Origin: a virus
DNA: 45,816 bases
Strand: one strand, 5' to 3'
Virus record (IMG/VR): IMGVR_UViG_3300031616_000204
Location: 1 to 45,816 of that record
The translations under genes were made by a program, and so were the position numbers. Position 1 is the stretch's first letter. Each line of letters begins with the position of its first letter. Positions 29,713 to 45,816 of this stretch are shown here, piece after piece. The notes under the pieces were generated by a model. The model did not search any database. It was not told where the DNA came from and saw only the letters and a program-made list of their open reading frames with translations.

Positions 29713-29917
29713 GCCGATACGGGCCAGGCCGGACCGGGCAGCGTCTGCCGCAGGTACGACGCGCACGGGCTCCGACCAGGACGGCGTATCGGTGCGCCTG
29801 CGCACAGCGGTGGTCCGCCGGGTGTGTCGGCGTACGGCTTGAAGTGCAGAGCCGCGTACGCCACGAAGTACACAGCAACCATCGACGTCGTCCGCCTGCG
29901 GGAATGGCCGCGAACAT
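29713..29917. other. gap without a supported gene
   Basis: About 200 bp after the small amyloid-motif gene. Frames on both strands are Arg/Pro-rich and look like shadows. It leads into the repeat at 29918. Together with the next kilobase it forms a gene-poor junction that includes a broken gene and a transposase remnant. Confidence 0.5.
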
Positions 29918-29984
29918 CCGTCGCCTACGCAAAGTCACCGCTGTGATGGGGACGGCGGTGTCCGGATTTGCCGATGATAGTGCG
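29918..29984 (+). repeat. island repeat, copy A
   Basis: Shares with copy E (43406-43469) an opening CCGTCG-CTAC followed by AAGTCAC, and the 17-base block TCCGGATTTGCCGATGA (29961-29977). Differences between A and E fall mainly every third base, which hints at past coding constraint: IGTAVSGFADES-like on the + strand, or LSSANPETAVP-like on the minus. Copy C shares the CCGGATTTGCCGA core. Copy A falls at the 3' end of the truncated minus-strand gene that follows. Confidence 0.65.
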
Positions 29985-30310
29985 CCATACATGGCGGGCC
30001 GCGTCCCTAAATTGAAGTGCCACCTGAAACGCGCCCGAGGCTCCTTCCCTAATTCATCAATCGCATCTGCCGACGGGAGGACGTGGTATGGGCGTTCATT
30101 TGGTGCGCAGAACGGATTGATGCGGGCACCCTTTAACTCTCGGGCGCCACCTCCCAAATGGTAGTACTGTATGTATACGTCGTAAATAGGCAATGGTGAT
30201 GCGTTCACTACGAACGCGCCCCACGAGATCTCGCCGTTCTCATCGTCCGTGACCGCACCCGCATACCAGGCGCACACCAACTCCGCTTGCCGACATTCGG
30301 CATAGGCGTG
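29960..30310 (-). pseudogene. truncated gene, C-terminal or middle fragment
   Basis: The minus-strand frame bounded by a TGA at 30313-30311 reads HAYAECRQAELVCAWYAGAV, then WGAFVVNASPLPIYDVYIQY and LGKEPRARFRWHFNLGTRP. It resembles the cytoplasmic part of actinobacterial membrane proteins with an (R)xxQAE-AWY... V-NAS-P-YDV pattern. The upstream part, where a membrane span would be expected, is missing and replaced by transposase-like DNA. The frame then runs into repeat A. No start with a ribosome site is visible, so this is called a gene remnant. Confidence 0.5.
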
Positions 30311-30519
30311 TCAGGCAAGAACCTTCTTCGCGGCCTGTAGTCAGGAGTTGAATCGATTAGCCAATACATTGAGCGGCTCGCGCGCGCTACCAAATTCGAT
30401 ATACGTACTCCAACAACATCTATTCTGAAGCGAACCCGGGCTGGGCGTGTTGGAACCCGCGTAATGCCCGGCGCCGGAGGGCGGACCTGTTTGCCGCGCC
30501 CAGGACGTAGTGCTACCGG

Positions 30520-30696
30520 CAGCAGGTGATCGCGGACGGTGAGCCAACGGAGCAGACCCAGACGCCGGTCGGGTACCGGCCACGACCCCGGGTCCATGAA
30601 AGGCCACCGCGGCAGTAACGGCCCGATCAGCTCCCATAACCGATCATCAACGTCCCACGGCCTACCCACGACAACCGATCCGAGACTGACCTTCAC
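30520..30696 (-). pseudogene. IS5-type transposase N-terminal remnant
   Basis: From GTG 30696 the minus strand reads VVVGRPWDVDDRLWELIGPL, then LPRW and GSWPVPDRR, the usual opening of IS5-family transposases (RPW-V-D-LW--I-PLLP). After that the sequence stops resembling the family in any frame (the next expected block, about a hot-dog of VLHTGI--LP, is absent), so only about 55 codons remain. It shows that an insertion sequence once lay between the truncated gene and the CHAT operon. Confidence 0.6.
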
Positions 30697-30828
30697 CTCG
30701 CAACACTGATCGCCATCGATTCAGCCGATCGTGTCAGAAGATTGCATAGGGCCCGCAGGATCGGGTTGCCGATTGCGTGGAGCCGTCCGCTGCTCGCAGA
30801 GTGGAAGGTAAACGAGGGGGATCGTCGC

Positions 30829-33800
30829 ATGGCAGTGTTCCGATGGGGTCAGGCCGAGCACGGCCGCCTCGCCGACCTCGCGAACTCCATTCTGCTCACC
30901 AGCGACACCGGCGGCATGCGCGCCGCGATTGCGGCGACCGCACCCGCCGACCTCCGCAAGGTCGACGTGCTGTTCCGCAACCTGCTCGCCCGCCGCCGCA
31001 ACAACCCGACCGACGACGCGGAGCTAATCCCCGCCGTTGAGCAGCGACTGCAAGCGCTTTACCACTGGCGCACCCGTTCACCGCAACGGCGACCCTCCTA
31101 CCTGACCGGCGAGCGGGCTCCTTTCCTGGCCGACGAGCGGCTGCGCCGCCTGGTCAACACCACTTCGGCGGCCGAGTTCGCCGCACTTGCGGACGACTTC
31201 GCCGCGGTCGCAGGCCCGGATGTCGACGAGCTGCTCGGCCAGTTCGCAGGCGAACTGGCGGCGGATCTGTCGTTTCCGTCGGCCAACCTGGTGGAGCGGC
31301 GGCGCCGGATGATCGCCGCGCCCGAAAGCGGTGAACTCGAATTCGGTGACGGGGCCGTCGCACACGAGAACTTCCTCGCCGCGGCGATCGATTTCGAAAC
31401 CCTGCTGGCCACGCTGGCCGAGACCGGCGACACGAGCCTGCTCGACGCGGTCGTGGCCGCGATACCCGAGCTGGTCGAGCACCGATCCTGGAGCTTCTAC
31501 ATCGAGGAGCGTCGAATTCCCCTGCTGGAAGGATGCGCGAACGCGGCCACCCTGCGCTTCGAGACCTGGTCGGAGCCGGACGACATCCTGCTGGCGGTAC
31601 GGCTCAACGCGCAGCTGCTCGAAGAGATCGCGGTCGACGACCCGCGCCGGGCCGGATACTGCGCCAACCTCGGCAACAGCTTCCGTAGACGGTTCCGAGT
31701 CACCGACGACCTCACAGATCTCGATGACGCGGTCGCGACCCTCGAATACGCCGCCGACCTCTGCGGGCAGCGCGGTTCCGTCGCACCTCTGGTCTGCAGC
31801 GTTCTCGCCGGCGCGCTGCTGCTGCGCCATACGGTGGCCGACAATGACGCCGACCTTGTGCGGGCCGTCGCCGCAGCCGAACTTGCCGTTCGCCGAGCGT
31901 CGCGTAGCGACCCCGAGTATCCGACGTACTTCTTCGACCTGAGCGCGGTCCTGGTCGTCCGCTACCACCGCGACGGCGATCCGGCCGATCTGGAACGGGC
32001 TCGCGCGATGGCAGGCAAAGCGCTGCGGGCGGTGGAGGAGAAGGACCCTCGCCGCGCCATGTACGCCGACCACGTCAAAGCCCTCGCACATGGCCCGCCG
32101 CCGCTTCCCGCCCCGTCGGCCGAAACCGACGTACCCGCCTCACCGATCGACGATCCGGCGCCCGAAACAGGCCCGCCGGGGCTGTGCCCGATCTGTGGTG
32201 CGGCCTCGATAGCGCTACGCCATCCCGGGCCGATCGTGTCGGCGGTGGACAACGACGCGGCGTCGCTGCTGGAACTGCTGAGCGACGAGCCGCAGGTGCA
32301 CTGCGAGGTCTGCGGCACCGTCCTGCCCGTGCGCCCGGCCATGATCGCGTTGATGGTCGGCCCGGACGGCGCGCAACCACGCCTGGCGCTGCAGATCGCC
32401 GCGCCCGGCACGTTCCACCTGCGCAAAGACGACTACCGCCGGCTGGCCGACGCGGCGACCTACGTCGACCGGTTTGTCCAGCAAACAAACGGAAACGTCG
32501 TCGTGCAGAGCGGCATCGAGGTGATCACCAAGATCGTGGACTCCGTCGACGAGGTGATCGCCGAAGTAGCCGCGTCAGTCGATCACCGCCTCCAGATCGT
32601 CTATGCCGTCACCGAGGACCCGCAAGGCCTGCCCGGCCGATGGCGGGAGCTGACCGGCGCCGTGTTCACCACCGCCGACCTGCTGACCGACACCGAGATC
32701 CAGGGCCCCCACCGCCAGCTGACCGAAATCGACCTTGACTCCCTGCAGTTGACCGTCTGGCAGGAACTGGCCGCCTTCTGGTCCACACCCTCACCCGACC
32801 CGCGGCTGCTCTTCGACAGCGACCTCGGCAACTACGTGCGTCGGCAACCGTCGCCGCGTGCGGTGCAGCGATTCTGCGCGCTGCCACCACCCGCCGCCGA
32901 CTACTTCGCCGTCTACGCCTACCAGGCGCTCCGCGCCACCATCTGCACCGCAGCCGGCATCCCCAACGACCTGAACGACCAATGGGCGACCGTCTACCTG
33001 CTGAACGAAACGTCCCGAGGCCCGATCACCGTCAGCCGTTCCCGGGCGCGAGCGACGATCGGCATCGACAGCGCCCGCCGTGCCGTCACCGGACTGCTCA
33101 TAACCCACGCGGACCGCGCCGCACCCACCTTCGAGCACGACCTGCGCCGGGCCACGACGGACCTGGGCTTCGACCACCTCGTCGACGTCGTCGCCGCAGC
33201 GCTGACCACACAAGCACCGGCCACGGATCGGGACGCCGTCCTTGCCGCCGCCGACGCGTTCAGCGCCGCCGGGGCCACCGATCGGGCGCTCGCGGTACTC
33301 GAAGCCGCCCGCGCCAGGGGCAGCGGCGTGATCGAAGACTTCGACGCGCAATACACCTACGCTGCCCTGCTGTCGGAGAACGATTGCCACGCCGAGGCGC
33401 TGGCGGCGATGGTCCGCGCCGAGAACATGGCGCTGGATGCTCAGTCGCGGCTGCTGAGCCGTTACGCCCAGGCGAAACTGCACCTGCACGTAGGCGGCCG
33501 CGACCGGGCCGTGGAAATCCTCACCACCGAACCAGCACCCGGCCGGGAGTCGCCGCGATGGGCGCGAACGGTGCTGCTACAGGCCCTCACCTGGCGCAAC
33601 GTCCTCACCCTCGGCCCGGCACCGGCCGGATCGGACCCGCTGCTCGACGCCGTCGACACGGCCCTCGCCGGAATTACCGAACCCGCCGACGCGCACAGCG
33701 AGGCGGTCGCGCTGCGGGCGGGTCTTGCGGAGCTCCGCGGCACCGGAGCGGCGCCGGAACTCTACGCGCGGGCCGACGCGCTGCGCCGCGGCCAGCGCGT

Positions 33801-35214
33801 CGGCCGGGACCCGGTGGAACTGCTCGAACTCGCCCGCGCGGCCTACCGGAGCAAAGACCTCCCCGCAGCCCGCGAACTCGTCGCCGAGATCCCCGCGGCG
33901 ACCGCGTCCTGGCTCGGCACCCTCGACGACCCGGCGCTGGTGGCCGGTCGCCTGCGACCGTTCTCGGCCCGACTCGGCGAGCTGGCCCGCGATGCTATCG
34001 GCACCGATTGGAAGGATCTGCTGACCATCGGCGAGCTGCAGCGCGACACCGTGTACCGGCTGAGATCAGCATCCAGCGGCGTACTCGACGCCGGCGACCG
34101 GCAACCCGTCGACCTCTCCGAGGCCGGCCTGAGACGCCTGGCGCAGCCCGAAGGCACGCTTGCCGTCGTCGAATGGCTGAACGTCGGGCTGGGCCGCCGA
34201 ACCGACGGCTTCGCCGTGACGCCCGTCCTGGTGTGCACGATGATCCTGCCGAACCTCGGCGTCGGCGGCCGGATCCAAGCCGCCGCCGAGATACCCGCCA
34301 ACCACGACCACACGGTCCGCCGGGTGCGCGCCAAACTGGCGGCCTGGCACGCCGCACGCGCCGGCGACCCCCTGGACATGCCCGAATGGCAGGAAGCGGC
34401 CGCCTGGATGCGCGCCGTGCTCGCCCCTGCCGAGATCGGCGACGCCCACGTCGTGTTCATCGAACACCCGCTGTACCTCGGCGCACCCTGGCACACCGCC
34501 ATCGCCGGCAACTGGACCGCCTCGTACGCCAACAGCTGGCAGGAGATCCACGACCTCGTTGCCCGACCACGACGAAGGCCCACCAGCACGCTAGGCGTGC
34601 TTGTCGCGCCCCGATTCAACGAACCACCGCATATCCTCGCCGCGATGCACGCCTCCGTCGCCCGCAGCCGCGAACTCGCCGGTCCCACGCTGCTCACCAC
34701 CGAACCTGAACGCAACGACCACCACTGGTTCCACCACCTACTCACCCAAGCCGACCTCGTCAAAATCCTCTGCCACGGCTTCGTCAGCGCCACCGATCAA
34801 GAGGTCTGCCTGACGGTCGCCCACGACGGCAAACTCCCCACCTCCGGCTCCACCGCGGCCACCAGCCACGACCGCGGCCACCGCCTCAGCTGGCGCGACT
34901 GCCACGACCTGCACGACGCGAAAGCAACCGTCTTCAGCGCGGCATGCTCCAGCGCGAGCAGCTTCTCCACGGCCGCCGGCGACCGTCTCGGCCTCTTCCC
35001 GGCCCTGCGCCGCAGCGGTGTGCCCGCACTCGTAGCGCCTGGCTGGGACGCGTTGGCCGTACCCACCATCGACATCCTCGATAACGTGATCGACCTGTAC
35101 ACCGCCGGCCGGCCCCTCGCCCAGGCCGTCCGGCAGGCCGGCCGCACCGCGGCTGACCGCGACCTCAGCCCATGGATCGCCCGATCCCTGGCAGTGGAGG
35201 GAGACTGGCGTTGA
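30829..35214 (+). CDS. CHAT-domain protease with long sensor region
   Basis: 1461 residues. ATG 30829 is chosen for GAGGGGG at 30814-30820. Residues 1-400 are helical, TPR-like; a zinc ribbon follows (LCPICG, C453/C456; VHCEVCG, C492/C495); 650-1050 is mixed and then TPR-like again (ALAVLEAARARGSG, ALLSENDCHAEALAAM). The C-terminus from about 1130 is a CHAT caspase-like peptidase with the expected dyad: H1316 in LCHGF and C1373 in FSAACSS. CHAT proteins with TPR sensors cleave partner proteins on activation, as in Craspase or the gasdermin systems. The next gene starts on this gene's stop codon and is the natural partner. What the sensor detects is unknown. Confidence 0.85.
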   Translation: MAVFRWGQAEHGRLADLANSILLTSDTGGMRAAIAATAPADLRKVDVLFRNLLARRRNNPTDDAELIPAVEQRLQALYHWRTRSPQRRPSYLTGERAPFLADERLRRLVNTTSAAEFAALADDFAAVAGPDVDELLGQFAGELAADLSFPSANLVERRRRMIAAPESGELEFGDGAVAHENFLAAAIDFETLLATLAETGDTSLLDAVVAAIPELVEHRSWSFYIEERRIPLLEGCANAATLRFETWSEPDDILLAVRLNAQLLEEIAVDDPRRAGYCANLGNSFRRRFRVTDDLTDLDDAVATLEYAADLCGQRGSVAPLVCSVLAGALLLRHTVADNDADLVRAVAAAELAVRRASRSDPEYPTYFFDLSAVLVVRYHRDGDPADLERARAMAGKALRAVEEKDPRRAMYADHVKALAHGPPPLPAPSAETDVPASPIDDPAPETGPPGLCPICGAASIALRHPGPIVSAVDNDAASLLELLSDEPQVHCEVCGTVLPVRPAMIALMVGPDGAQPRLALQIAAPGTFHLRKDDYRRLADAATYVDRFVQQTNGNVVVQSGIEVITKIVDSVDEVIAEVAASVDHRLQIVYAVTEDPQGLPGRWRELTGAVFTTADLLTDTEIQGPHRQLTEIDLDSLQLTVWQELAAFWSTPSPDPRLLFDSDLGNYVRRQPSPRAVQRFCALPPPAADYFAVYAYQALRATICTAAGIPNDLNDQWATVYLLNETSRGPITVSRSRARATIGIDSARRAVTGLLITHADRAAPTFEHDLRRATTDLGFDHLVDVVAAALTTQAPATDRDAVLAAADAFSAAGATDRALAVLEAARARGSGVIEDFDAQYTYAALLSENDCHAEALAAMVRAENMALDAQSRLLSRYAQAKLHLHVGGRDRAVEILTTEPAPGRESPRWARTVLLQALTWRNVLTLGPAPAGSDPLLDAVDTALAGITEPADAHSEAVALRAGLAELRGTGAAPELYARADALRRGQRVGRDPVELLELARAAYRSKDLPAARELVAEIPAATASWLGTLDDPALVAGRLRPFSARLGELARDAIGTDWKDLLTIGELQRDTVYRLRSASSGVLDAGDRQPVDLSEAGLRRLAQPEGTLAVVEWLNVGLGRRTDGFAVTPVLVCTMILPNLGVGGRIQAAAEIPANHDHTVRRVRAKLAAWHAARAGDPLDMPEWQEAAAWMRAVLAPAEIGDAHVVFIEHPLYLGAPWHTAIAGNWTASYANSWQEIHDLVARPRRRPTSTLGVLVAPRFNEPPHILAAMHASVARSRELAGPTLLTTEPERNDHHWFHHLLTQADLVKILCHGFVSATDQEVCLTVAHDGKLPTSGSTAATSHDRGHRLSWRDCHDLHDAKATVFSAACSSASSFSTAAGDRLGLFPALRRSGVPALVAPGWDALAVPTIDILDNVIDLYTAGRPLAQAVRQAGRTAADRDLSPWIARSLAVEGDWR

Positions 35215-35735
35215 ACCCAGCAAGCGACGAATCCCTGGCCCGGTTCCTGACCGCCCGACAGGCCGACCGCGACACCATCGAACAGGCTGCCCGATACGCC
35301 GTAGCCGAACTCAGCCGCGACCTGACCCCCGACGAAATGCTCCACGAACTACGCGCCACCCTGAACGAACCCGACACCGCCCCGGCAACGGTCGCCGACC
35401 TCACCCGATCCCCGGCCGACCTGACCGAAACCGCCCTCTGGGTCCTCACCCACCTCTGGTACGACCTCGACGAACGCGAAGTCGTCGCCGGGGCAGTCAT
35501 CAATGCCCAAACGAAGCTACCCATCATCGAGGTCGCCGTAATCGCCACCAGCGTCCTCTACGGCCTGCACCTGATCATGACCCGGGGCGTAAAACGCAGC
35601 ACCCACAAAGTCGAATACCGCGCCGACGGCTCCTTCACGGAAACGACAACCCTTGACTACCAGACCCCACCCGCCGCCTCGCGTCTCGTCGCCGGCCTGC
35701 GCTCCCAAGACCCAGATCAGTCACCGGAGGCTTGA
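35211..35735 (+). CDS. small membrane protein coupled to the CHAT protease
   Basis: 174 residues from TTG 35211, overlapping the CHAT stop (TTGA) with GGAGGGAG at 35196-35203; this rare start is clearly supported by that site. The N-terminal 95 residues are helical and acidic (DRDTIEQAARYAVAELSRDL). One hydrophobic span lies at about 99-121 (LPIIEVAVIATSVLYGLHLI), then a basic, Thr-rich tail (RGVKRSTHKVEYRADGSF). It is not a gasdermin by size or pattern. It could be the protease substrate, freed or activated at the membrane by cleavage, or a membrane anchor for the protease. The coupling is seen; the role is inferred. Confidence 0.7.
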   Translation: MNPASDESLARFLTARQADRDTIEQAARYAVAELSRDLTPDEMLHELRATLNEPDTAPATVADLTRSPADLTETALWVLTHLWYDLDEREVVAGAVINAQTKLPIIEVAVIATSVLYGLHLIMTRGVKRSTHKVEYRADGSFTETTTLDYQTPPAASRLVAGLRSQDPDQSPEA

Positions 35736-36334
35736 CGCCGACCCGGAGCGATCAAATGGTCCATTCCTACACGATGAGGAGTACCACCGACCACGCTGCG
35801 TACGTGTAGGACGCGACCGTGCCTACACATCACCCACTGATGTTGCGGTATCTCGCCGGTGGTAGTGACGCCACAGGTGAACGGTAGCGGTACCTGCGAG
35901 AAGTGCAGCCACGGCGCCTTTCCGCTGCCGTTCGAAGGCCGGACGCTGGTCGCCCAGGGCAGCCTCACCGGCCGGCTTCAGCCAGACGAGCACGGCGAAT
36001 ACGGCGAACGACCGCGACACCGGCGCGGGTTTTCCTTGGGGAAAGAACTGCCGCCGCCAAACACCAGTGCACTGCCCGCGACCGCCATGATGGCAGCCCT
36101 ATTCGCCACACCGAGTTCATGATCTGCACGGACGAAAGTATGGGTCAAGCCGGCCGTGAAACCGAATCGTGCTGCGCGTAGGCGAACCGAAACACGCGAG
36201 GTTCTCGCCGTGATCGACTGCATTGTTCAGCGGCAAATACGGGCCACCGCCAGAATAGGACGAAATCCGTCGCGCGAGTCCGGTGATCTCATTCTAACTC
36301 CTCAACCACATATGATCGCCGCAGAACACTCATC
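35736..36334. other. gene-poor region after the CHAT operon
   Basis: About 600 bp with no supported gene. An 8-bp inverted repeat (TCCTACAC at 35765-35772, GTGTAGGA at 35804-35811) 30 bp after the stop may act as a terminator or be an element end. A minus-strand frame at 35823-36020 (SRSFAVFAVLVWLKPAGEAA) looks like a fragment of a membrane protein, but has no start site or clear ends. The base composition becomes mixed here. Confidence 0.4.
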
Positions 36335-36430
36335 TGCCGCGATCAGGCGCGCTGGCCGGAGGCGCGCGCCGTCACGCTCGGTAGTCGGCCAGCGCGCGGG
36401 CCGGCTCTCGGACATGCCGATGAGCGCGCA
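36335..36430 (+). repeat. island repeat, copy B (hairpin type)
   Basis: Copies B and D (40497-40590) share 23 identical bases at their left ends (36335-36357 and 40497-40519), a GTCACGCT block in the middle and GGACATGCCGA at the right (36410-36420). In B the bases GCGCGCTGGCC (36347-36357) and GGCCAGCGCGC (36387-36397) are perfect 11-bp inverted repeats, so the element can fold into a large hairpin. The right end resembles the GGATTTGCCGA core of copies A, C and E. Confidence 0.7.
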
Positions 36431-36497
36431 CCCAGCGGGCGTTTCTGGACTTGGAGCACACTGTCGCCCGACCATAGATCTTGCACGTGAGGACGGC

Positions 36498-36716
36498 ATG
36501 CGTCGGGAAACGTTCGTTGCTTACTTCCGCGACAAACTCGAAAACCTACTGGCGAATCACGCCGGGCGGTGGCAGAGTGGCGCTGTCTTTCATCGAATTT
36601 GTCGACCCAGCACCTCTGTTTCGGAGCGCGCGCCAAGCCCGTCGGTGTCGAATCCGCCCTGGAGCTCGCTCCGGTTGGTCGACTGCTTTATGGCCCGAGA
36701 TCCCTTCGCTCGGTAA
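36498..36716 (+). pseudogene. possible short gene fragment
   Basis: From ATG 36498 the frame reads MRRETFVAYFRDKLENLLAN then HAGRWQSGAVF and degenerates into Ser/Pro-rich sequence before the next gene. The first 35 codons look protein-like; the rest does not. It may be the 5' remnant of a gene cut off between repeat B and the next module. No family is recognised. Confidence 0.25.
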
Positions 36717-36727
36717 GGAGGAACCGT

Positions 36728-37915
36728 ATGGCGACTTGGCCGGGCACTCAAGATCACCAGGCTCTTTTTCGTATGGCAACGAGCCTCGCTAATGAGTTAC
36801 TCAGGATAGATGAACGCTTGATCCACTTAAACGACACGACGCATCGGCAGCATCAGGAGTTCGCTGGTCGTGCGCATAGTCTGGGCGTCTACCTACGGGC
36901 GGCGGTGCGGCAGGCGTTGGAGGACGACTACGCTCCCGCCTTCGCGTCGCTGCGGGTCGCGTTGGAGCACATGCTGCTCGATCAGCTCATCTTCAATGGC
37001 CAGCGCCTGATCCAGACCGCCCGCGGCGTGGATGACAAGACGTGGACCGAGTGGCAACGCCAGCGCACGGCCGGCGAAGGATTTACCAGCGTTATCGAGT
37101 GGACGCGATATGCAAAAAAGAGCACGGTCGAGATCATCACCGAAGGACTACGCTCGACGCCCGATGACGACGGAACCACCTACCTATTGAGCCCGTACTA
37201 CTTCCTCCTCCAGCAGTACAAGCCATTCTTCGGACCTGCAAGCGCCCAGCACGAATTCGACGACGGGATCGGCGAGGTCGACGAATTCCGTCGTCTCGCC
37301 AAAGAGTACGAGCAGTATTACCTGACCTATCTGAGCTGGTCGAGCATCAAGCGCAACTTGCGGCTGAATGGCTTCGCCGACGAGACCACCACCGGACGTA
37401 TCGATGTTCACTACCGGTTTCTGAGCGCGTTCGTGCACCCGACCACCAACACCAACGAGATCAGCTACGGCCGAAACAACCGAAACATCCCTCGGTATGA
37501 CCACTACAGCAGTGAACTCGCCCTGCTCTACACCATCGTCATCGCGGTCGAGGAGCTGCGGCACTTCCACGAGATGTCTCAACGGCCACCGCTCGTTGGC
37601 CTCGACGACTGGGACGACCTCGCCGCATTGTGCGATACCGCGTGGAGCCTCACGTCTCATCTCTGGTGGCCCGGCCAGCCGCCGCATGCCTGGGACCGCT
37701 TCCAGGAGGCCAACAAGCGGCGGTTTCGTGCCCTACGCGATTCCCCGACCACACCGCTACCGGGTCCAAGCCCCGACGCCATTCCCGAGCACGAGATCCG
37801 CTACTACCGCGACCCGATGCAGCGACTCGTTCGCCTGCATTCCAGCTTCCAAGAGATCATGACCAGGCTCGCCTATCAGTCACCGTGGCCACGAACCGAC
37901 GCACAGTTCCGGTAG
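36728..37915 (+). CDS. HEPN-like protein, function unknown
   Basis: 395 residues from ATG 36728, with AAGGAGG at 36715-36721; the frame upstream to 36569 has no such site. It is almost entirely helical. YRFLSAFVHPTTN holds R230 and H237, an Rx6H arrangement like the catalytic motif of HEPN ribonucleases, within a helix ending in H-P as in DUF5677/AbiV-type proteins. The N-terminus (RAAVRQALEDDYAPAFASLR, ALEHMLLDQL) is also typical of these helical bundles. No transmembrane span. It stands alone between repeats B and C. If a HEPN RNase, it could cut RNA after phage infection; only motif and context support this. Confidence 0.6.
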   Translation: MATWPGTQDHQALFRMATSLANELLRIDERLIHLNDTTHRQHQEFAGRAHSLGVYLRAAVRQALEDDYAPAFASLRVALEHMLLDQLIFNGQRLIQTARGVDDKTWTEWQRQRTAGEGFTSVIEWTRYAKKSTVEIITEGLRSTPDDDGTTYLLSPYYFLLQQYKPFFGPASAQHEFDDGIGEVDEFRRLAKEYEQYYLTYLSWSSIKRNLRLNGFADETTTGRIDVHYRFLSAFVHPTTNTNEISYGRNNRNIPRYDHYSSELALLYTIVIAVEELRHFHEMSQRPPLVGLDDWDDLAALCDTAWSLTSHLWWPGQPPHAWDRFQEANKRRFRALRDSPTTPLPGPSPDAIPEHEIRYYRDPMQRLVRLHSSFQEIMTRLAYQSPWPRTDAQFR

Positions 37916-38573
37916 CCGCGTGCTCGCATAGCTGCGACTCAGTGCCCGCAATAGCTCACGGGACGCTGGTGGCTGGCCGGCGGTTGCGGGCACAACGACC
38001 GTCGACTCGGTCAACAGTACGGCGTGACCTCGCCAGGTCGCCTTCCGTGAACCCCACGTCCGACTCGTGCTGATGTACTCAGCGCGTCAGCGAAACGCGT
38101 GCTGGCTCCCGGTCGTGCGCGCTACCTCGCTCGGGACCACACTCCGGGAGTCTGAAAGGGCTGCCGTTGGCTCACCCGAGCCGATGGCGTCAGCGCAGTG
38201 CTTGTGTACGTGAGTGTGAGGTTTAGCGGCGGCATAGTGGCCGTCCCTGTTGGGTAGCTTGAGTTCCTGCCATACCAGACGCTGCGACCTCGCGGACGGC
38301 TGCCTCGACCCGACGGTCACCGCGTACCACCGTCATGATGATCGTGTTTCAGCACGAGCATGGTTACCGGATTTGCCGAGAAGAGCGCATATACGGCGTG
38401 CTCCTATCGCGGGCAGAAGGCACGGGGATGCGGAAGCCGAGTGTGCGCTCTTGTACTTCAAAGCGCCATTTGGGCCGGCAGGTTGACCGGGGCCGCTGGG
38501 GCGGCCGAATGCGGAATTTGAGACGCCGCGTAACGGCAGGTGAAGTTACTATTGGCAGGCATGGAGCAGCGGA
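37916..38573. other. gene-poor region containing repeat C
   Basis: About 660 bp between the + strand HEPN-like gene and the 3' end of the minus-strand gene at 38574. A minus-strand frame at 38087-38320 (RLVWQELKLPNRDGHYAAAK in part) reads like protein but has no ribosome site and no known family. Nothing else is supported besides the repeat at 38316-38390. Confidence 0.45.
38316..38390 (+). repeat. island repeat, copy C
   Basis: Begins GTCACCGCGTACCACC and ends CCGGATTTGCCGAGAAGAGC, with the core at 38367-38379. It shares 13 bases with A and E at the core and the GAAGAG that follows with copy D, so it links the two subtypes. It has the same orientation as all other copies although the adjacent downstream gene is on the minus strand. 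Confidence 0.6.
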
Positions 38574-40379
38574 TCAGCCCGGCTGATCGCCGTCTGGTGA
38601 CCCGTCGTTCGATACAGGAGGTTGGCGCCGCCACTTCGTCGAATCCCATTCCAAGCCGACAAGGCGCCTCCTCCGCCACCGTTTCGGCCGACGTATGAAG
38701 TTTGCAACCAGCAGGAGGGTTGCGAGAAAAAGAAAGCCAGCATACATCAGAATTATCGCATTGGCTCCGCCCTTGGCCCACTCGATCAAAGGCCGCGCCG
38801 CAGGGACAATGAATGGAGGCGGCTTCCACTGCGCAATCACGGATAGTGAGTCTCGAATTGCTGGAATACCAAGTAGGACGGTCGCGAAAGAGCCGATTCC
38901 AGCAATCAGGTAATTTCTCCTGACGCTGGCATCGACCTTCCGCACGTCCACCAACTGCTGGTTCATGGCCAAACGATCAACCACCCTCTGATGGAGTTCG
39001 CCCACGTTGAGTTTGGCCAAGATGTCAGCAACGATATCTTGGGCGCCTCCGAAGGATATGGTCGAGGACCTATGCTCTGCGATACCTTCCGCCAGTCTAA
39101 GCTGTATTTTAGTCAGAGTACTCGCCCGTCGTTCGGAAAGATCGAGCCGGTTATCAAGCTCCTGAATCTGCCAGTATTGAAGTACTGCATTCTCAATGAT
39201 TGCAACTGTATCGAGAAGTGACACGAAGGAAGGGGCATACTCTGTTTCGTCGGTATTCCAGTCGACGGTGACGGCGTTGCCACCGTTGTAATAGCGGGAG
39301 CTGCTACGTTGTATCGACCTGTCCGCCTGCAGCACTTTAGCGGTTGTCGCATCGCCGATATCACCAAAATCGTCATAGCGGAGGATTAGCCCGGCGAGCT
39401 CATCCGAGTGCGACTTCAGCCACCGATCTCGGGTGCCACAGCAGGCGATACCCCCGATTGCTAGGGTGGCATAACAGAAGTAATCGCCGACTCTTCCGCC
39501 ACGTTCGCCTGCGAGTTCGCAGATTCTGTCTCGATAAACGAAGAAGGCATCCGCAATACTGAAGTCATCGGCCCATTCGATGCGACGGTGTGTTGGCACG
39601 CTATCGCCATCTGGCAGCAGTTCGTCGGTCCGTGCAACTTGATCTGCGATCTCGCCGACCCCGACAACTGGGATTGGAAACGTCGTAGAGGTCAAGGTCA
39701 TCGTCTTGCTGACGGATGCTCTGACCAATTCAACCGAAGAGCGGTTGCTCCCGACTACTGTGTAAAACGTGAGGAGCGCTACGCCGGAGCGATGCAAAAC
39801 CAGGATCGGGATTATCGTTTCGTCCGCCAGAAGGCGTGATGTCGCCCCTAGATTTCCAAGCTCGAGACGAATAAATGGCCCCTTGCGCAAATATATAGGG
39901 CTAAAGAGAAATTCATCTGTGGCCGCGGCAGCGCCGAGCACCTTGGCATTTTCTGCCATGGCAGCATCAATCTCGGCGACTGATTCGCGAAGAGAGGATA
40001 GATTCGTGCGGTCAGAGCTGGAAAGTCTTCCGGCCTTGTTGGAAGAAAGGCTAAACCGCAGAACGCGACGCCTAAACGCAAAGGCGGCCGCCCTTGGATT
40101 ATTGAAAACCCAGCGGAACGTGCTAATTTTCCCGTCCGCAACCTCGGCAATATTGGATAATCCCTCGAGGGTGTCGCGCGCCCTTAGGGCGGCAAGCTGG
40201 CGCCTACTGACACGCATCGTCGTGGATGGCGCTACGGCGGCCACATCCGCAACACCGGTGTCGAGAAGTCGATTCGCTAGATCATCTATGTCGGAGCCGG
40301 GCGGAAGAGAGAACGCGTAGGTGAAGCAGACGCCAACCGCCGAGTACTTTGCCCGGTGTCGGGAGCGGCCGAATTTCAT
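38574..40379 (-). CDS. unknown protein with two C-terminal membrane segments
   Basis: 601 residues on the minus strand from ATG 40379, GGAGG 11 bases upstream. About 480 N-terminal residues are soluble: an alpha/beta section (VSRRQLAALRARDTLEGLSN), a cysteine spot (IGGIACCGTRD), then a coiled-coil-like stretch (LDNRLDLSERRASTLTKIQL). Two spans follow at about 490-508 (YLIAGIGSFATVLLGIPAI) and 540-560 (IILMYAGFLFLATLLLVANF), ending in a basic tail (RRPKRWRRRR). A large sensor plus two terminal spans after a coil is the layout of CorA-like and other membrane-effector defence proteins. Codon use is much less GC-rich than the prophage, which suggests transfer. No family is recognised. Confidence 0.6.
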   Translation of the reverse strand: MKFGRSRHRAKYSAVGVCFTYAFSLPPGSDIDDLANRLLDTGVADVAAVAPSTTMRVSRRQLAALRARDTLEGLSNIAEVADGKISTFRWVFNNPRAAAFAFRRRVLRFSLSSNKAGRLSSSDRTNLSSLRESVAEIDAAMAENAKVLGAAAATDEFLFSPIYLRKGPFIRLELGNLGATSRLLADETIIPILVLHRSGVALLTFYTVVGSNRSSVELVRASVSKTMTLTSTTFPIPVVGVGEIADQVARTDELLPDGDSVPTHRRIEWADDFSIADAFFVYRDRICELAGERGGRVGDYFCYATLAIGGIACCGTRDRWLKSHSDELAGLILRYDDFGDIGDATTAKVLQADRSIQRSSSRYYNGGNAVTVDWNTDETEYAPSFVSLLDTVAIIENAVLQYWQIQELDNRLDLSERRASTLTKIQLRLAEGIAEHRSSTISFGGAQDIVADILAKLNVGELHQRVVDRLAMNQQLVDVRKVDASVRRNYLIAGIGSFATVLLGIPAIRDSLSVIAQWKPPPFIVPAARPLIEWAKGGANAIILMYAGFLFLATLLLVANFIRRPKRWRRRRLVGLEWDSTKWRRQPPVSNDGSPDGDQPG

Positions 40380-40496
40380 ACGCTTTCCGTCCTCCGGCTG
40401 ATGAGACTGAACGAACGAGGCCTATTTTAGGGCAACCGCGCAAGAGCGTGGCATGCACCTTTCGGGAGGAAATTCGTCAGGCCCGGCGTATTCGCA

Positions 40497-40590
40497 TGCC
40501 GCGATCAGGCGCGCTGGCCAGCTGCACCACGTCACGCTTGGTGGTCGGGCCAGCGCCCCGGCCAGCTTCTGGACATGCCGAGAAGAGTGT
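40497..40590 (+). repeat. island repeat, copy D (hairpin type)
   Basis: Pair of copy B. GCGCTGGCC (40511-40519) and GGCCAGCGC (40548-40556) are perfect inverted repeats, with a second small stem inside (CACCA/TGGTG). The right end is GGACATGCCGAGAAGAG (40571 onward), joining it to copy C. It lies 118 bp upstream of the start of the minus-strand gene at 40379. Confidence 0.7.
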
Positions 40591-41099
40591 GGTGGCTAGA
40601 CGGGTGGATGATATTTGACGTTACCCTACTAAGAGATTTTTAAATGCGCTACACTCACGCTGGCAATGACTGCTGTCACGCACGCTGAGACGATTTGGAG
40701 CGCTAAGGGGCGGGCATCCCAGCCTCACGGCCGTTCTGAGATCGTTGATCATGCGACGAGCGTCGATCCCGCGAAGGCAAAATTTCCGATTTTCGCGTTG
40801 CAAAGTGGATGGCGACTGAAAAGCTCCGGACGCCTGCCGCTATCGGGTTTTCGTTCTTCCTGCCTGGCGACACGCCGTAATGTCGCCCCAACGAGTGGTG
40901 CCAATTTCAGTGATCAACGATCTCAGAACGACCGTGATCCCAGCCTGCCGCGGCTGCAGTCATTGCGCTGACGGCGGCGATCGTCGCGGGCAGCCATGGC
41001 GCTCCCCAGTGTTTGCGCCCGCGGACCATGGGTACATGGTAGAGCCTACAGGCAAGCGGCGCCGCACTGCGATATCCCGGGCTCCTGATGCCTGCCGTG
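40591..41099. other. gene-free stretch containing a MITE-like element
   Basis: No gene is supported here. The stretch between repeat D and the two-gene operon holds the 213-bp inverted-repeat element at 40725-40937; short frames inside it on both strands mirror each other because its ends are inverted copies. The flanks are unremarkable. Confidence 0.5.
40725..40937. mobile_element. MITE-like element, 213 bp
   Basis: The left end (40725-40752, starting TCACGGCCGTTCTGAGATCG) and the reverse complement of the right end (40910-40937) agree at 26 of 28 bases. The element is flanked by direct copies of TCCCAGCC at 40717-40724 and 40938-40945, an 8-bp target duplication (9 bp if one shared base is counted). 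It is too short to encode a transposase, so it must be moved by one elsewhere. An 8-10-bp duplication fits the ISAs1, ISL3 or IS256 groups; the family is not fixed by what I can see. Confidence 0.8.
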
Positions 41100-41546
41100 C
41101 TAAGGAGTGGGCAACTGTGAATTTCCAGGATTCACGCCAGTCAAATAGTGCTGCGATAGTGATGCCTCGGCGTAATTCTCTGCACGCGCAATCGCCAGCA
41201 GGAGCAACTCTTCAAGCTCATCAGTGTCGAGCCGGCTAATGGCTCGCGTCGAATTTGCGAAAGCCTCGACTACGAACCTGTCTTGACTTGTAGCTCCAGC
41301 GATTCCTGACATAACGACAGACCGGGCGTTAATATCCGAACTGGGTCCCGGATTAGTTAGGGCGACTTCCGCCGACCTCAAGATCTCCTCGGCGGTCCAT
41401 GTCACTGAAACGAACCAACTCCCATGTCGTTCGCCCGCTCGGGCCTTAGCGGGCCTGTCAGCGAGAGCCTGCCGAGTTCTGGCGGGCAGCTCGCTCGCCC
41501 ATTGTGTAAACACAGCCTTAAGGCTGGAAAAGTCGTCCACCTGCAC
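41100..41546 (-). CDS. hypothetical protein, second gene of a two-gene operon
   Basis: 148 residues from GTG 41546, five bases after the upstream gene's stop. The sequence is helical and acidic (SSLKAVFTQWASELPARTRQ, TAEEILRSAEVALTNPG, DELEELLLLAIARAENYA). No membrane span, motif or known family is seen. The tight spacing implies that it works with the upstream gene. Codon use is less GC-rich than in the prophage. Confidence 0.55.
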   Translation of the reverse strand: MQVDDFSSLKAVFTQWASELPARTRQALADRPAKARAGERHGSWFVSVTWTAEEILRSAEVALTNPGPSSDINARSVVMSGIAGATSQDRFVVEAFANSTRAISRLDTDELEELLLLAIARAENYAEASLSQHYLTGVNPGNSQLPTP

Positions 41547-41551
41547 GCCGC

Positions 41552-41980
41552 CTACCTGACCTGCACCGTGCCAACATCAACTACGGCATCTTTTGGAAAG
41601 CCGTTTGGCAGGAAGTACTCGATACCTTGGCCGAACCGAATCCAGGCCGGTCCACGTACTAAGTCGATCTTTGTCGGATCGAGCAATAGAGCATGCTGCC
41701 TCTTTAAGCGAGGCGACCATAGCGCCAGCCAGAAAACAACGTCCTTGGGGCTGATGGCCGTGGGGGTTACCCAGTGCCCCCTCCCTGGGCTGCCATCGTT
41801 AAATTCGGTGACCTGCGAGGCCACCAGATATCTAACGAGGAACCGACTGCCGAGCTCTGCCGCCACGGCCGCTCCGGTTCGATCCGGCATGTCTTCGACA
41901 GGCTGCAATCGAGATGCGATCACGGAGGTCAGCTCTATTTGTTCCTGATCCAGCGTCGTGGCCATCCAGGAGCAAGTCAC
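41552..41980 (-). CDS. hypothetical protein, first gene of a two-gene operon
   Basis: 142 residues from GTG 41980, with GGAGG about 5 bases upstream on the minus strand. The N-terminus is helical (TLDQEQIELTSVIASRLQPV); the C-terminal part is beta-rich with several Trp and Pro (KDVVFWLALWSPRLKRQ, GPAWIRFGQGIEYFLPNGF). Short unknown pairs like this are common in defence islands; toxin-antitoxin or a two-part system are options, with no motif to choose between them. Confidence 0.55.
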   Translation of the reverse strand: MTCSWMATTLDQEQIELTSVIASRLQPVEDMPDRTGAAVAAELGSRFLVRYLVASQVTEFNDGSPGRGHWVTPTAISPKDVVFWLALWSPRLKRQHALLLDPTKIDLVRGPAWIRFGQGIEYFLPNGFPKDAVVDVGTVQVR

Positions 41981-42339
41981 AGCGTCCTCCAGCGCTTGCT
42001 GCCAACCCTAACTCTTACTCATGCGAGCTACCTTCGACTGCCTGAAGTCATTCTTCCATGAACCAGGAAGCCATGAGGTTAAATCGATACAGTCGTACGG
42101 ACCGCGACCAACTCACATGCCGCCATTAGGATGCAGGGGGCGCCGGGTTGGTCACTATCCGTGTTTGGCGTGCCTCACGCGCCGCGACCCGGACGGGATC
42201 CGCCGAGAGACAGGTATCGACGCCGCGGTCAGCCTTGCTCGCGTGTGCTAGCCCGCCGATAGCTATCCCCCGACCGGCCGGTCTTGGCGCTGCCGGGAGT
42301 CTGGCCCGGTCGATCGGAGTTGATGGCATCCTGTCAACC
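41981..42339. other. divergent promoter region
   Basis: About 360 bp between the minus-strand operon and the NYN gene, holding both promoters. Short frames on the + strand here have no ribosome site. No copy of the island repeat is seen in this gap, so these two modules are the exception to the punctuation pattern. Confidence 0.4.
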
Positions 42340-43317
42340 ATGAGGTCCAGGTGCTCTCTCTACGTGGACGTCGGCTACCTGCTCGGTTCCGCAGCCGTCC
42401 GGGTGACGGGAACATCGTTGCGCAGCGGAATTCACGTCGCCTACCCGCCGCTCATTGACGCACTCATTCGACAGGCCGAGCAGGTATCGGAACTGCCGGT
42501 GCTGCGGGTGCACTGGTACGACTCAGCCAGAGACGGCGTACCCGACTCCCAGCAGCAGGTCATCGGGGAGCTGCCCAAGGTCAAGTTACGGCTCGGCCGG
42601 TTCGGCGTGGACGGCCAGCAGAAAGGCGTCGACCTGCGTATCGGGCTCGACCTCGTGACGCATGCCCGCAACGCCGCCGCCGACGTCTTCATTCTCGTCT
42701 CGGGCGACGATGATCTCACCGAGGCGGTCGAGGAAGCCCAGGTCCACGGCGTGCAGGTCATCCTGCTCGCCGTCGCCAACAGCGAGAACAAGCCCCACGG
42801 CATGAGCCGGCACCTGATCCGGGCCGCCGACGGGCTCGAGATCCTGCCGCAGGAAACCATCGCTCAAACGGTAACGAAAGCCGAAACGCCCCCAGCCACG
42901 CCAGCCACGCCGCAGCCGGCAGCGATCGCCCAGCCAGACGTAAAGCCACGAACCAGAGCCACGCCCAAGGACCTCGCCGGCCTGGGCCGCTCCGACGTGG
43001 TCCGTCCCCCGTCGTCCGTGCTCGCCTACAGCGCGGCCACCGGCCGCGAGCCGCAACTCACCAACGGGTACCAGGACCCTGCCGAACTCGCCGAACAGAT
43101 CGACCTCGTGGTCACCAACGTCCTGACGGCATTCCGCGCGTCCGCCACCGCGGACGCGCTGGCAGAACTCAAGGCAGGAAAGCCATCGATCCCGCGAGAC
43201 ATCGACAAAGCCCTGCTGACTGACCTATCCGACAGCCGCGGCGAACTCGACTTGAGCGAACGGACACGCCACCAACTGCGGGCACATTTCTGGACGAAAG
43301 CCGACGAGATGCCGTAA
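42340..43317 (+). CDS. NYN-domain (PIN-like) RNase-type protein
   Basis: 325 residues. ATG 42340 is chosen because the protein-like sequence begins there (MRSRCSLYVDVGYLLGSA); GGAG at 42316 is too far for a normal ribosome site, so the message may be leaderless. The NYN (LabA/DUF88) fold shows acidic sites in YVDVGY (D10), KGVDLRIGLDLV (about D88) and LVSGDDDLTEAV (about 120-124), the metal-binding set of PIN-like nucleases. A Pro/Thr-rich linker (200-235) leads to a helical C-terminal domain (AEQIDLVVTNVLTAFRASAT). Such proteins cut RNA or act as sensors; the substrate is unknown. GC-rich codon use is like the chromosome. Confidence 0.8.
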   Translation: MRSRCSLYVDVGYLLGSAAVRVTGTSLRSGIHVAYPPLIDALIRQAEQVSELPVLRVHWYDSARDGVPDSQQQVIGELPKVKLRLGRFGVDGQQKGVDLRIGLDLVTHARNAAADVFILVSGDDDLTEAVEEAQVHGVQVILLAVANSENKPHGMSRHLIRAADGLEILPQETIAQTVTKAETPPATPATPQPAAIAQPDVKPRTRATPKDLAGLGRSDVVRPPSSVLAYSAATGREPQLTNGYQDPAELAEQIDLVVTNVLTAFRASATADALAELKAGKPSIPRDIDKALLTDLSDSRGELDLSERTRHQLRAHFWTKADEMP

Positions 43318-43405
43318 TGCAGGTCATCAGACGCAGAGCCACCCGCTGCACCCGGCAGCACCCGTTGCGCCAACCCAGCCCAGCACAGCAGCGGGCCACG
43401 AGAGC

Positions 43406-43469
43406 CCGTCGACTACACGAAGTCACGCACATTGGAACCGCGGTTTCCGGATTTGCCGATGAGAGTACG
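43406..43469 (+). repeat. island repeat, copy E
   Basis: Pair of copy A, with TCCGGATTTGCCGATGA at 43446-43462 and a palindrome (GGAACCGCGGTTTCC, near-perfect) just before it. It lies 88 bp after the NYN gene and before the 3' end of the minus-strand ATPase gene. The remaining 270 bp to that gene are gene-free and AT-richer. Confidence 0.65.
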
Positions 43470-43699
43470 TTCTGCAATTGCGACTTGAACTGTCAATTGG
43501 ATTGCGCTCAGCCGCGGATCCCCCACTCGGTTGTGTCATCCGCAGGGGCAGACAAGGGATCCACCGAATGCGTCAGGATATACGATGGAAAGGATAAGGA
43601 TAGCTGTATTGGCGATCAGGAACATACCCAAGCCTACCCGCCAGGACAGGTAACTGCTCCTTCGGCTCAGCCACGCACTATTCACCTTGAATTACCTGA

Positions 43700-43736
43700 A
43701 GGCATAGAAAAAATATTACAAAGAAGAATTTCTTCT
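43700..43736 (-). terminator. intrinsic-type terminator of the ATPase-TOPRIM gene
   Basis: On the minus strand, right at the stop codon, AGAAGAA and TTCTTCT (43736-43730 and 43728-43722) form a 7-bp stem followed within 15 bases by a run of six T (about 43714-43709). The stem is weak and AT-rich, unusual for this GC-rich genome but in keeping with the foreign composition of the gene. Confidence 0.5.
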
Positions 43737-45645: not shown

Positions 45646-45816
45646 GCAATGCAAACTATCAGTACTCGCCGAGTTCGCGAGGCCGGTGCGGCCGCGGCCG
45701 CAATCGCTCGCGCTACCGATCTTGGACGACGCCCGCATCCAAGATCTTCTTCTACCTCGGTATCCGGATCTGCCGCGAACCGGTGCTCGGACCGTCACTT
45801 TCAGTGTCGAACCCAC
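45646..45816. other. window edge upstream of the ATPase gene
   Basis: 171 bp at the right edge. It should hold the promoter of the minus-strand ATPase gene. No gene is supported; the open minus frame is Arg/Ser-rich and probably not translated. Confidence 0.4.

Follow-up and report, generated by a model that had tools for sequence, protein, structure and literature searches.

The right third of a 45,816-nt viral record (IMG/VR record IMGVR_UViG_3300031616_000204, analyzed over its whole length and called the window here) is very probably a stretch of an integron-like cassette array, with its own recombinase family and its own type of site, in an actinomycete genome. The original prediction had read five repeats lying between gene modules of the window as the recombination sites of such an array, and this reading was upheld by the strand bias of related sites, their exclusion from genes, the ends of homology blocks and an integrase carried by the arrays. 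In this reading, units of one or a few genes stand head to tail, parted by directly oriented cores of ∼28 bp, and a dedicated tyrosine recombinase, encoded in relatives by a unit of the array, would exchange strands at the dyad center of the core, TGCCG(A/C). Strand exchange between double-stranded cores would excise, insert and reorder the units. The cores are of two overlap types, TGCCGA and TGCCGC; in a full site the C-type core comes first, a dyad-like motif takes the middle and the A-type core closes the site, the two cores being mostly 59 or 79–80 nt apart.

In the window, the 14-base core pattern GGAYWTGCCGAKRA was found five times on the forward strand and not at all on the reverse strand, and the reversed control pattern gave no match. 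The five predicted repeat copies were thereby confirmed in position, all on the plus strand (sites A to E, Table 1). With held-out matrices, for which only sites from elsewhere were used, all five cores scored above the best hit (21.5) in 30 randomized versions of the window generated by an order-1 Markov model (the Markov copies). Together with two probable cores at 42119 and 45772, the window appears to hold seven, all on the plus strand, whereas a plus-strand hit at 30069 (14.0) was dismissed as noise. The connectors B and D each seem to form a full double site, with a degenerate C-type core that sits below the matrix threshold; a C-type partner for A, C or E was not found in the window, nor did any part of the window match Rfam at gathering scores.

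Relatives of these sites were sought by scanning one genome per species (84,980 species) with a loose GTCAC...core pattern, which returned 22 stretches. Six were inspected, and four of them, from Actinoplanes (which we take to belong to the Micromonosporaceae) and Pseudosporangium, showed the same extended core and were followed (genome labels: G001, Actinoplanes utahensis; G002, A. couchii; G003, Pseudosporangium ferrugineum; G004, A. aureus; G005, a Leifsonia metagenome-assembled genome). The Leifsonia stretch shares one sequence with that of an uncultured actinobacterium, and Leifsonia was dropped after a single match. The other 16 stretches were judged to be chance from taxonomy alone, and the 58 stretches given by the pattern scan of viral contigs were judged so from their sequences. 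In the genus reached from the Actinoplanes and Pseudosporangium stretches (the first genus, 67 genomes), a 22-base core pattern with at most two mismatches occurred at 92 places (table sum) in 40 genomes, compared with one place for the reversed pattern. Matrices were seeded with 89 of the 92 places, three being dropped, and with the five window cores, so that their training set came from the window and the first genus. Stretches were picked for a matching core or integrase, also from a second genus that includes G245, G261 and G331. The 58 joined stretches (1.72 Mb, window included) contain 456 cores scoring at least 15. The longest series were seen in G245 (54 cores in 117 kb), G261 (31 in 34 kb) and G331 (23 in 36 kb). 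Judged from sequence, the window repeats belong to a large, unnamed family of sites. Its core spans ∼28 bp around the hexamer TGCCG(A/C): a variable left arm of about RYRTCCGGAYH precedes TGCCG, which is followed by A and about KRAGAGTGCG in the A type and by C and about CGATCGTGCG in the C type.

The array architecture is apparent from the placement and orientation of the cores. In the 53 stretches with at least two cores, the majority strand carried 442 cores and the minority strand 10. As the matrices derive from the first genus and from the window itself, a fairer test of orientation is given by 10 stretches from eight other genomes of the family that were chosen by their integrase, in which 111 of 111 cores share the strand of the integrase. 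In ten later stretches from nine second-genus genomes, 94 of 98 cores pointed one way, and so did all 29 cores in the remainder of the G245 stretch. The genes within arrays point in both directions (223 along and 183 against the array), as the original prediction had noted for the window. In 22 arrays of at least eight cores, 145 of the 316 cores would be expected to lie within a called gene by more than 40 nt, but none did; genes were called with our own simple caller, which assigns 16–69% of an array to genes and is not a full annotation. The search of relatives with the site matrices, as the original prediction had proposed, therefore yielded one-strand arrays tied to gene units rather than repeats at random intergenic positions. 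Adjoining the first cores of the G045 array are genes for tRNA-Ser and tRNA-Arg (L137 2976–3176), a possible point of entry for an array.

The original prediction had also allowed that the repeats might stem from the end of an insertion element or be left over from a repeated coding sequence. One reading frame of sites A and E gives GFAD(D/E)S, and the short unit beside A recurs in other genomes, as either origin might produce. The coding reading (GFADES) was discarded, since in C and D the frame is, by eye, disrupted by the spacing. Ends of insertion elements or of miniature inverted-repeat transposable elements, being inverted, would not give 442 of 452 cores one way; the cores enclose different, unrelated genes, and no transposase was present among the nine window proteins scanned. 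An origin of this kind is hardly credible.

Where neighboring cores lay 40–90 nt apart, the C-type core came first and the A-type core second in all 51 cases; the orders A-C, A-A and C-C did not occur, and the spacing peaked at 59 and at 79–80 nt. Between the two cores lies a central motif, about GTSACGCTNCGTAGC, which in the 59-nt type appears by eye to be roughly its reverse complement. The GTCAC with which each repeat had been said to start is indeed present but, by eye, forms part of this motif and is not the start of the site. The difference of 20 nt between the two spacings corresponds to two helix turns and would fit a complex formed on double-stranded DNA. Pairs of A-type cores exactly 24 nt apart were observed in L133 (2627/2651) and L139 (17203/17227).

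The place of exchange could be read from ends at which two stretches cease to share a unit. Where the right-hand unit is shared, mismatches between cores are frequent up to index 7 and rare later; where the left-hand unit is shared, they are rare up to index 13 and frequent from 14 (21 and 19 ends). The pattern of both classes of ends places the exchange within indices 8–13, which is TGCCG(A/C). Independently of this, the best of ten dyad axes tested coincides with the center of this hexamer, with a complementary fraction of 0.418, and is the only axis above the 97.5% point of the null (0.357), although the dyad symmetry of the core is imperfect. Overlap regions of tyrosine recombinases need to match in sequence. 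At the left-sharing ends, which are the informative ones for core type, both partners had the same type in 19 of 21 cases and different types in 2 (the pairs are not independent). This would point to exchange within each type, A with A and C with C, as expected if the hexamer is that overlap. On that basis, a unit bounded by an A-type and a C-type core would need two exchanges to change both of its neighbors.

Cassette boundaries were examined through the ends of homology blocks shared between stretches. On both sides of the comparison, 323 of 1683 block ends fell within 25 nt of a core, where 0.46 were expected; when integrase blocks were removed, the figures were 43 of 607 and 0.17 (superseding an earlier version of the test, 25 of 209 against 0.07 expected). 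Forty-one block pairs, with 78–99% identity, run from core to core, 33 of them integrase units and eight other units. Among the latter are a 1.6-kb unit common to G245 and G314 (98.6%), a 1.1-kb unit common to G261 and G322 (98.1%) and a 2.2-kb unit present at two places of G245 (97.7%), none of which has flanks that align. The comparison of orthologous loci called for by the original prediction revealed, at one place, a switch of units between two shared neighbors. In G248 and G245 both neighbors are shared (91% and 92%), with an integrase between them in G248 and a linker of ∼93 nt in G245; the sequences diverge within the cores, and for one of these cores G248 has a degenerate version and G245 the hexamer TGCCGG. 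Since a piece of the integrase (84% over 780 nt) lies beyond the right-hand neighbor in G245, the difference looks like reordering and not simple loss. Similarly, the unit directly after the integrase in G283 stands 11.6 kb further down the array in G261. A 200-bp unit common to two genomes from core to core (L128 15244–15447, L146 2487–2691) has an end that resembles, by eye, the T-arm and acceptor of a tRNA; the idea of a tRNA cassette was abandoned, as ARAGORN reports none in these units.

When seven genomes were searched with Pfam for phage-type integrases, hits fell inside the arrays; they belong to one family of tyrosine recombinases of ∼305 amino acids. The window had been noted to lack an integrase, and the missing enzyme was thus located inside the arrays of relatives. 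Integrases at least 70% identical, fragments included, occur in 29 of the 67 first-genus genomes, and the remaining matches in this genus, mostly at 38–45% identity, are probably XerC/D. At 1e-75, matches were obtained in 56 of 300 genomes of the family. At 1e-60, there were matches in 16 of 394 genomes of the class, comprising the center genome, eight genomes at 68–76% identity, nearly all outside the family, and seven at 44–53%. No match was found on plasmids at a limit of 1e-40 and no relative in viral contigs, and the integrase reaches no cut-off among the NCBIfam families listed. The catalytic set of tyrosine recombinases is R-K-H-R-H/W-Y; as judged from an alignment with XerD, residues R, K, H, R, H and Y are kept in 43, 45, 45, 45, 45 and 44, respectively, of 45 full-length proteins of the array type.

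The integrase is closely associated with the cores. In 20 of the first 28 integrase loci, a same-strand core starts within 160 nt after the gene, in 16 of these at 11–34 nt, and in 11 loci a core lies about 970–1110 nt ahead of the gene end, just before the start. None of these 28 loci had an opposite-strand core, and neither of two control loci at 41–42% identity had a core. Of 62 further loci with at least 60% identity, which include places fetched twice, 38 have a downstream core, compared with none of seven loci at 43–50%. Some of these integrase-adjacent cores, for which the threshold was 12, are weak; for some of the misses among the 62 further loci, a weaker core could be seen by eye or, as in G283, the gene has no stop before the core. 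Cores bound the integrase gene as a unit of its own, which runs along the array strand and in several stretches has cassettes to its left and right, and the integrase is predicted to be the enzyme that acts on the cores. At the DNA level, one integrase unit matches 105 of 151 genomes in the genus of G261, many of these matches being short and weak and perhaps from other recombinases; among the matches listed, only the query, one in G222 and one 24-nt match begin before the unit's C-type core.

The nearest named relatives found for the array integrase are phage-borne, namely integrases of Arthrobacter phages such as Anekin and Bridgette (47.6% identity over 92%). This relationship would suit a history in which integrative elements such as phages or satellites, each with its own integrase, had accreted in tandem at one attachment site, a process that also leaves direct repeats. 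Most units, however, lack this integrase, the 120-kb G245 stretch having 54 cores but three integrase copies or pieces; G261 carries arrays at three chromosomal places, and no core-like sequence was found within 3.8 kb around the Bridgette integrase gene. Accretion is accordingly considered very improbable.

Among solved structures, the closest to the integrase is XerD (1.1e-20), and the arrays share several features with the dif (pdif) modules of Acinetobacter plasmids, in which modules are exchanged at 28-bp Xer-type sites and two kinds alternate. Like dif sites, the cores have a 6-bp central region, the exchange interval and the best dyad axis both falling on TGCCG(A/C). Were this a dif-module system, host XerC/XerD would move the units in trans and the array integrase would be a passenger, which would suit the size and the 6-bp center of the core as well as the core matches in genomes without a close integrase (18 of 38). 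In published dif modules (PMC13141974), C and D modules have to alternate, and the sites, with XerC/XerD binding sites, are inversely oriented. The sites described here are instead direct (442 of 452), and a dedicated recombinase is present. Its gene is embedded in the array, shares the array strand in all 10 integrase-chosen stretches and has cores at its borders in 33 shared block pairs. A dif-module system is thus quite improbable.

With integrons and superintegrons the arrays have in common a tyrosine recombinase, long one-way arrays of sites, mixed cargo, near-identical cassettes across genomes and a site beside the integrase gene (a core just after the gene in 20/28 and 38/62 loci). This common logic might suggest a true integron, or an integrase-less attC cluster, that annotation had overlooked. 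The array integrase, however, is not IntI: three proteins, the second a truncated piece, scored 45.2, 33.7 and 48.7 bits against TIGR02249, for which the cut-off is 265. In place of the inverted pair of attC there are direct 28-bp cores, and no attC-like fold was detected when 50 double sites were compared with dinucleotide shuffles under DNA parameters on both strands (mean z of −0.47 to 0.58, no excess). The hairpin-forming middle of the original description was consequently given up, the universal part of the repeats being the 3′ core. Further differences are that array genes run both ways and not mostly in one direction and that the integrase here is a core-bounded unit within the array, on the array strand. 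Given the failed IntI and fold tests, the system is not classifiable as an integron, and an overlooked true integron is extremely unlikely; integron-like working is still allowed. The IntegronFinder 2.0 report (PMC9024848) gives no complete integron in Actinobacteria, a group found to have almost no integrons. No account of the present cassette system was found in the open-licence literature, preprints and subscription papers being outside the scope of that search.

Several observations weigh against a cassette array with its own recombinase. An integrase of the array family was not seen in the 45.8-kb window record, and two of the seven window cores, those at 42119 and 45772, score at the level of noise (the 30 Markov copies contain 5 hits of at least 18.6 and 10 of at least 15.0). 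Apart from the integrase-chosen stretches and part of the later ones, scoring reused stretches on which the matrices had been trained. Most block ends (1360 of 1683) do not lie at cores. Cores opposed to the integrase were seen at L309, L310 and L324, in genomes that are nearly surely outside the family, where the one-way rule may be looser. Core matches occur in 22 of the 29 first-genus genomes with an integrase of at least 70% identity but also in 18 of the 38 without (these counts, and 29/67, are hand tallies from listings), which implies that arrays persist without the integrase or that another enzyme serves them. Finally, many of the fetched integrases are truncated or frameshifted, so that many arrays may be relics and activity at the present day is putative.

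Table 1. Sites and units in the right third of the window. Scores are from held-out matrices.
Feature	Position	Strand	Remarks
Left neighbor of site A	29825..29970	+	Unit end recurring in other genomes
Core A, A type	29958..29985	+	Score 34.6; hexamer TGCCGA 29969–29974
Cassette 1	30742..35735	+	CHAT-domain gene (30742 or 30835–35214) and overlapping partner gene (about 35211–35735)
Connector B	36335..36431	+	Degenerate C-type core TGCCGC 36335–36340 (by eye); GTCACGCTCGGTAGTC, starting at 36371, as central motif; A-type core 36404–36431 (score 26.8); C-to-A spacing 80 nt (a class also seen in relatives)
Cassette 2	36569..37915	+	Single gene, HEPN-like in the original prediction
Core C, A type	38363..38390	+	Score 30.6
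Cassette 3	38574..40379	-	601-codon gene opposed to the array; open frame; membrane protein in the original prediction
Connector D	40497..40592	+	Degenerate C-type core TGCCGC 40497–40502 (by eye), central motif, A-type core 40565–40592 (score 31.1); C-to-A spacing 79 nt
Cassette 4	41100..41980	-	Two small open frames
Probable C-type core	42107..42134	+	Hexamer TGCCGC 42118–42123; score 18.6, within Markov-copy range
Cassette 5	42148..43317	+	NYN-domain gene; homology begins near 42304–42325; Pfam NYN 6.8e-12
Core E, A type	43443..43470	+	Score 37.4
Cassette 6	43735..45646	-	AAA ATPase, weak OLD-type TOPRIM match; true start uncertain
Probable C-type core, right window edge	45760..45787	+	Hit 45772, score 15.0, within Markov-copy range

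The units between the window sites are listed in Table 1. The original prediction had one functional unit per gap, but the D–E gap is probably two units, a small operon and the NYN gene, split by the probable core at 42119 if that core is real; the core at 45772, if real, would close the ATPase unit after E. The left neighbor of A has seven matches at 80–87% in 6 of 354 genomes of the family, five of which stop at window position 29977, 7 nt beyond the G of the core, and two at 29941, and a model core was present at the same edge in three of six loci examined (L344, L345, L351). The NYN gene has homologues in 13 of the 354 genomes, one match being only 121 nt long. No core was found within about 1.5 kb in 11 of 12 NYN homologue loci examined; in G008 (L338) a C-type core lies just upstream, as at window 42119. 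DNA relatives of cassette 2 were found in two of the 354 genomes, at 67–68%.

Firm family support in the window is confined to the CHAT, NYN and OLD-like ATPase genes. The first protein of cassette 1 matches Pfam CHAT (3.2e-07), and its partner has no Pfam hit and a weak PADLOC match to Csx1 (0.011). The protein of cassette 6 matches AAA_15 (5.5e-22) and an OLD-like TOPRIM (0.019), with PADLOC hits of the AriAB, GajA and Old types. The cassette 2 gene gave only sub-threshold Pfam matches (DUF5677 0.068, Rv2743c 0.015), the cassette 3 protein, whose gene our caller left uncalled, had no Pfam or PADLOC hit at 0.1, and no Pfam or PADLOC family was hit by the two frames of cassette 4. Window 30552–30744, in the first cassette, recurs at 74–79% in many genomes of the family and probably derives from a former insertion sequence. 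In the fourth cassette, an inverted repeat (40725–40751 and 40911–40937; 27-nt arms, 96% complementary, 159 nt apart) may mark a small insertion element. Directly left of the array, window 1–29300 shows by eye a phage-like gene order, including a 1526-amino acid frame (16453–21033) of tape-measure size.

The cargo of relatives was surveyed with integrases excluded. Seven stretches of the second-genus genomes G245, G261 and G331 gave 233 called genes, of which 212 were eligible and 136 were scanned; in the first genus, 113 genes were called, 106 were eligible and 90 were scanned. Acetyltransferases (6), transposases (5), NAD-binding proteins (4) and sigma factors (4) were commonest among the 136 second-genus proteins, with few defence models. 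Glyoxalase-like proteins (5) and methyltransferases (3) lead among the 90 first-genus proteins, where models for GmrSD-type restriction, SspE, HEC-06, Orf5 and PDC-M42C were hit once each and those for mads parts up to twice. The array proteins scanned in relatives are thus mainly metabolic, regulatory, transposase or unmatched. By contrast, three of the units in the window have hits to defence-type or related families, a cargo of CHAT, NYN and OLD-like ATPase genes that it shares with defence islands. The description of the region as a defence-like island is the less well supported part of the original prediction, since the proteins scanned in the arrays of relatives represent general accessory genes and few defence genes; the six window units look richer in defence-type genes but are too few to generalize, and their defence cargo looks local.

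Integrons are the textbook machine of gene capture, and Actinobacteria are the main producers of antibiotics. It seems reasonably probable that the arrays represent a second, independently evolved integron, in which a phage-type recombinase and its own double-stranded attachment site gave rise to a two-type core system, with the overlaps as an addressing code. Such a system would travel as a cassette of its own array and would have built superintegron-like stores of accessory genes in the Micromonosporaceae and in some other Actinomycetes, bacteria in which classical integrons hardly occur. With such a separate system and its defined cores, the accessory gene stores of Actinobacteria would become readable unit by unit, and the ends of uncharacterized gene modules could be predicted with single-base precision. 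The new recombinase, whose direct sites are very short, may be of use in DNA assembly in actinomycetes, and the two overlap types raise the testable question of whether they let an array swap genes and yet keep its order.

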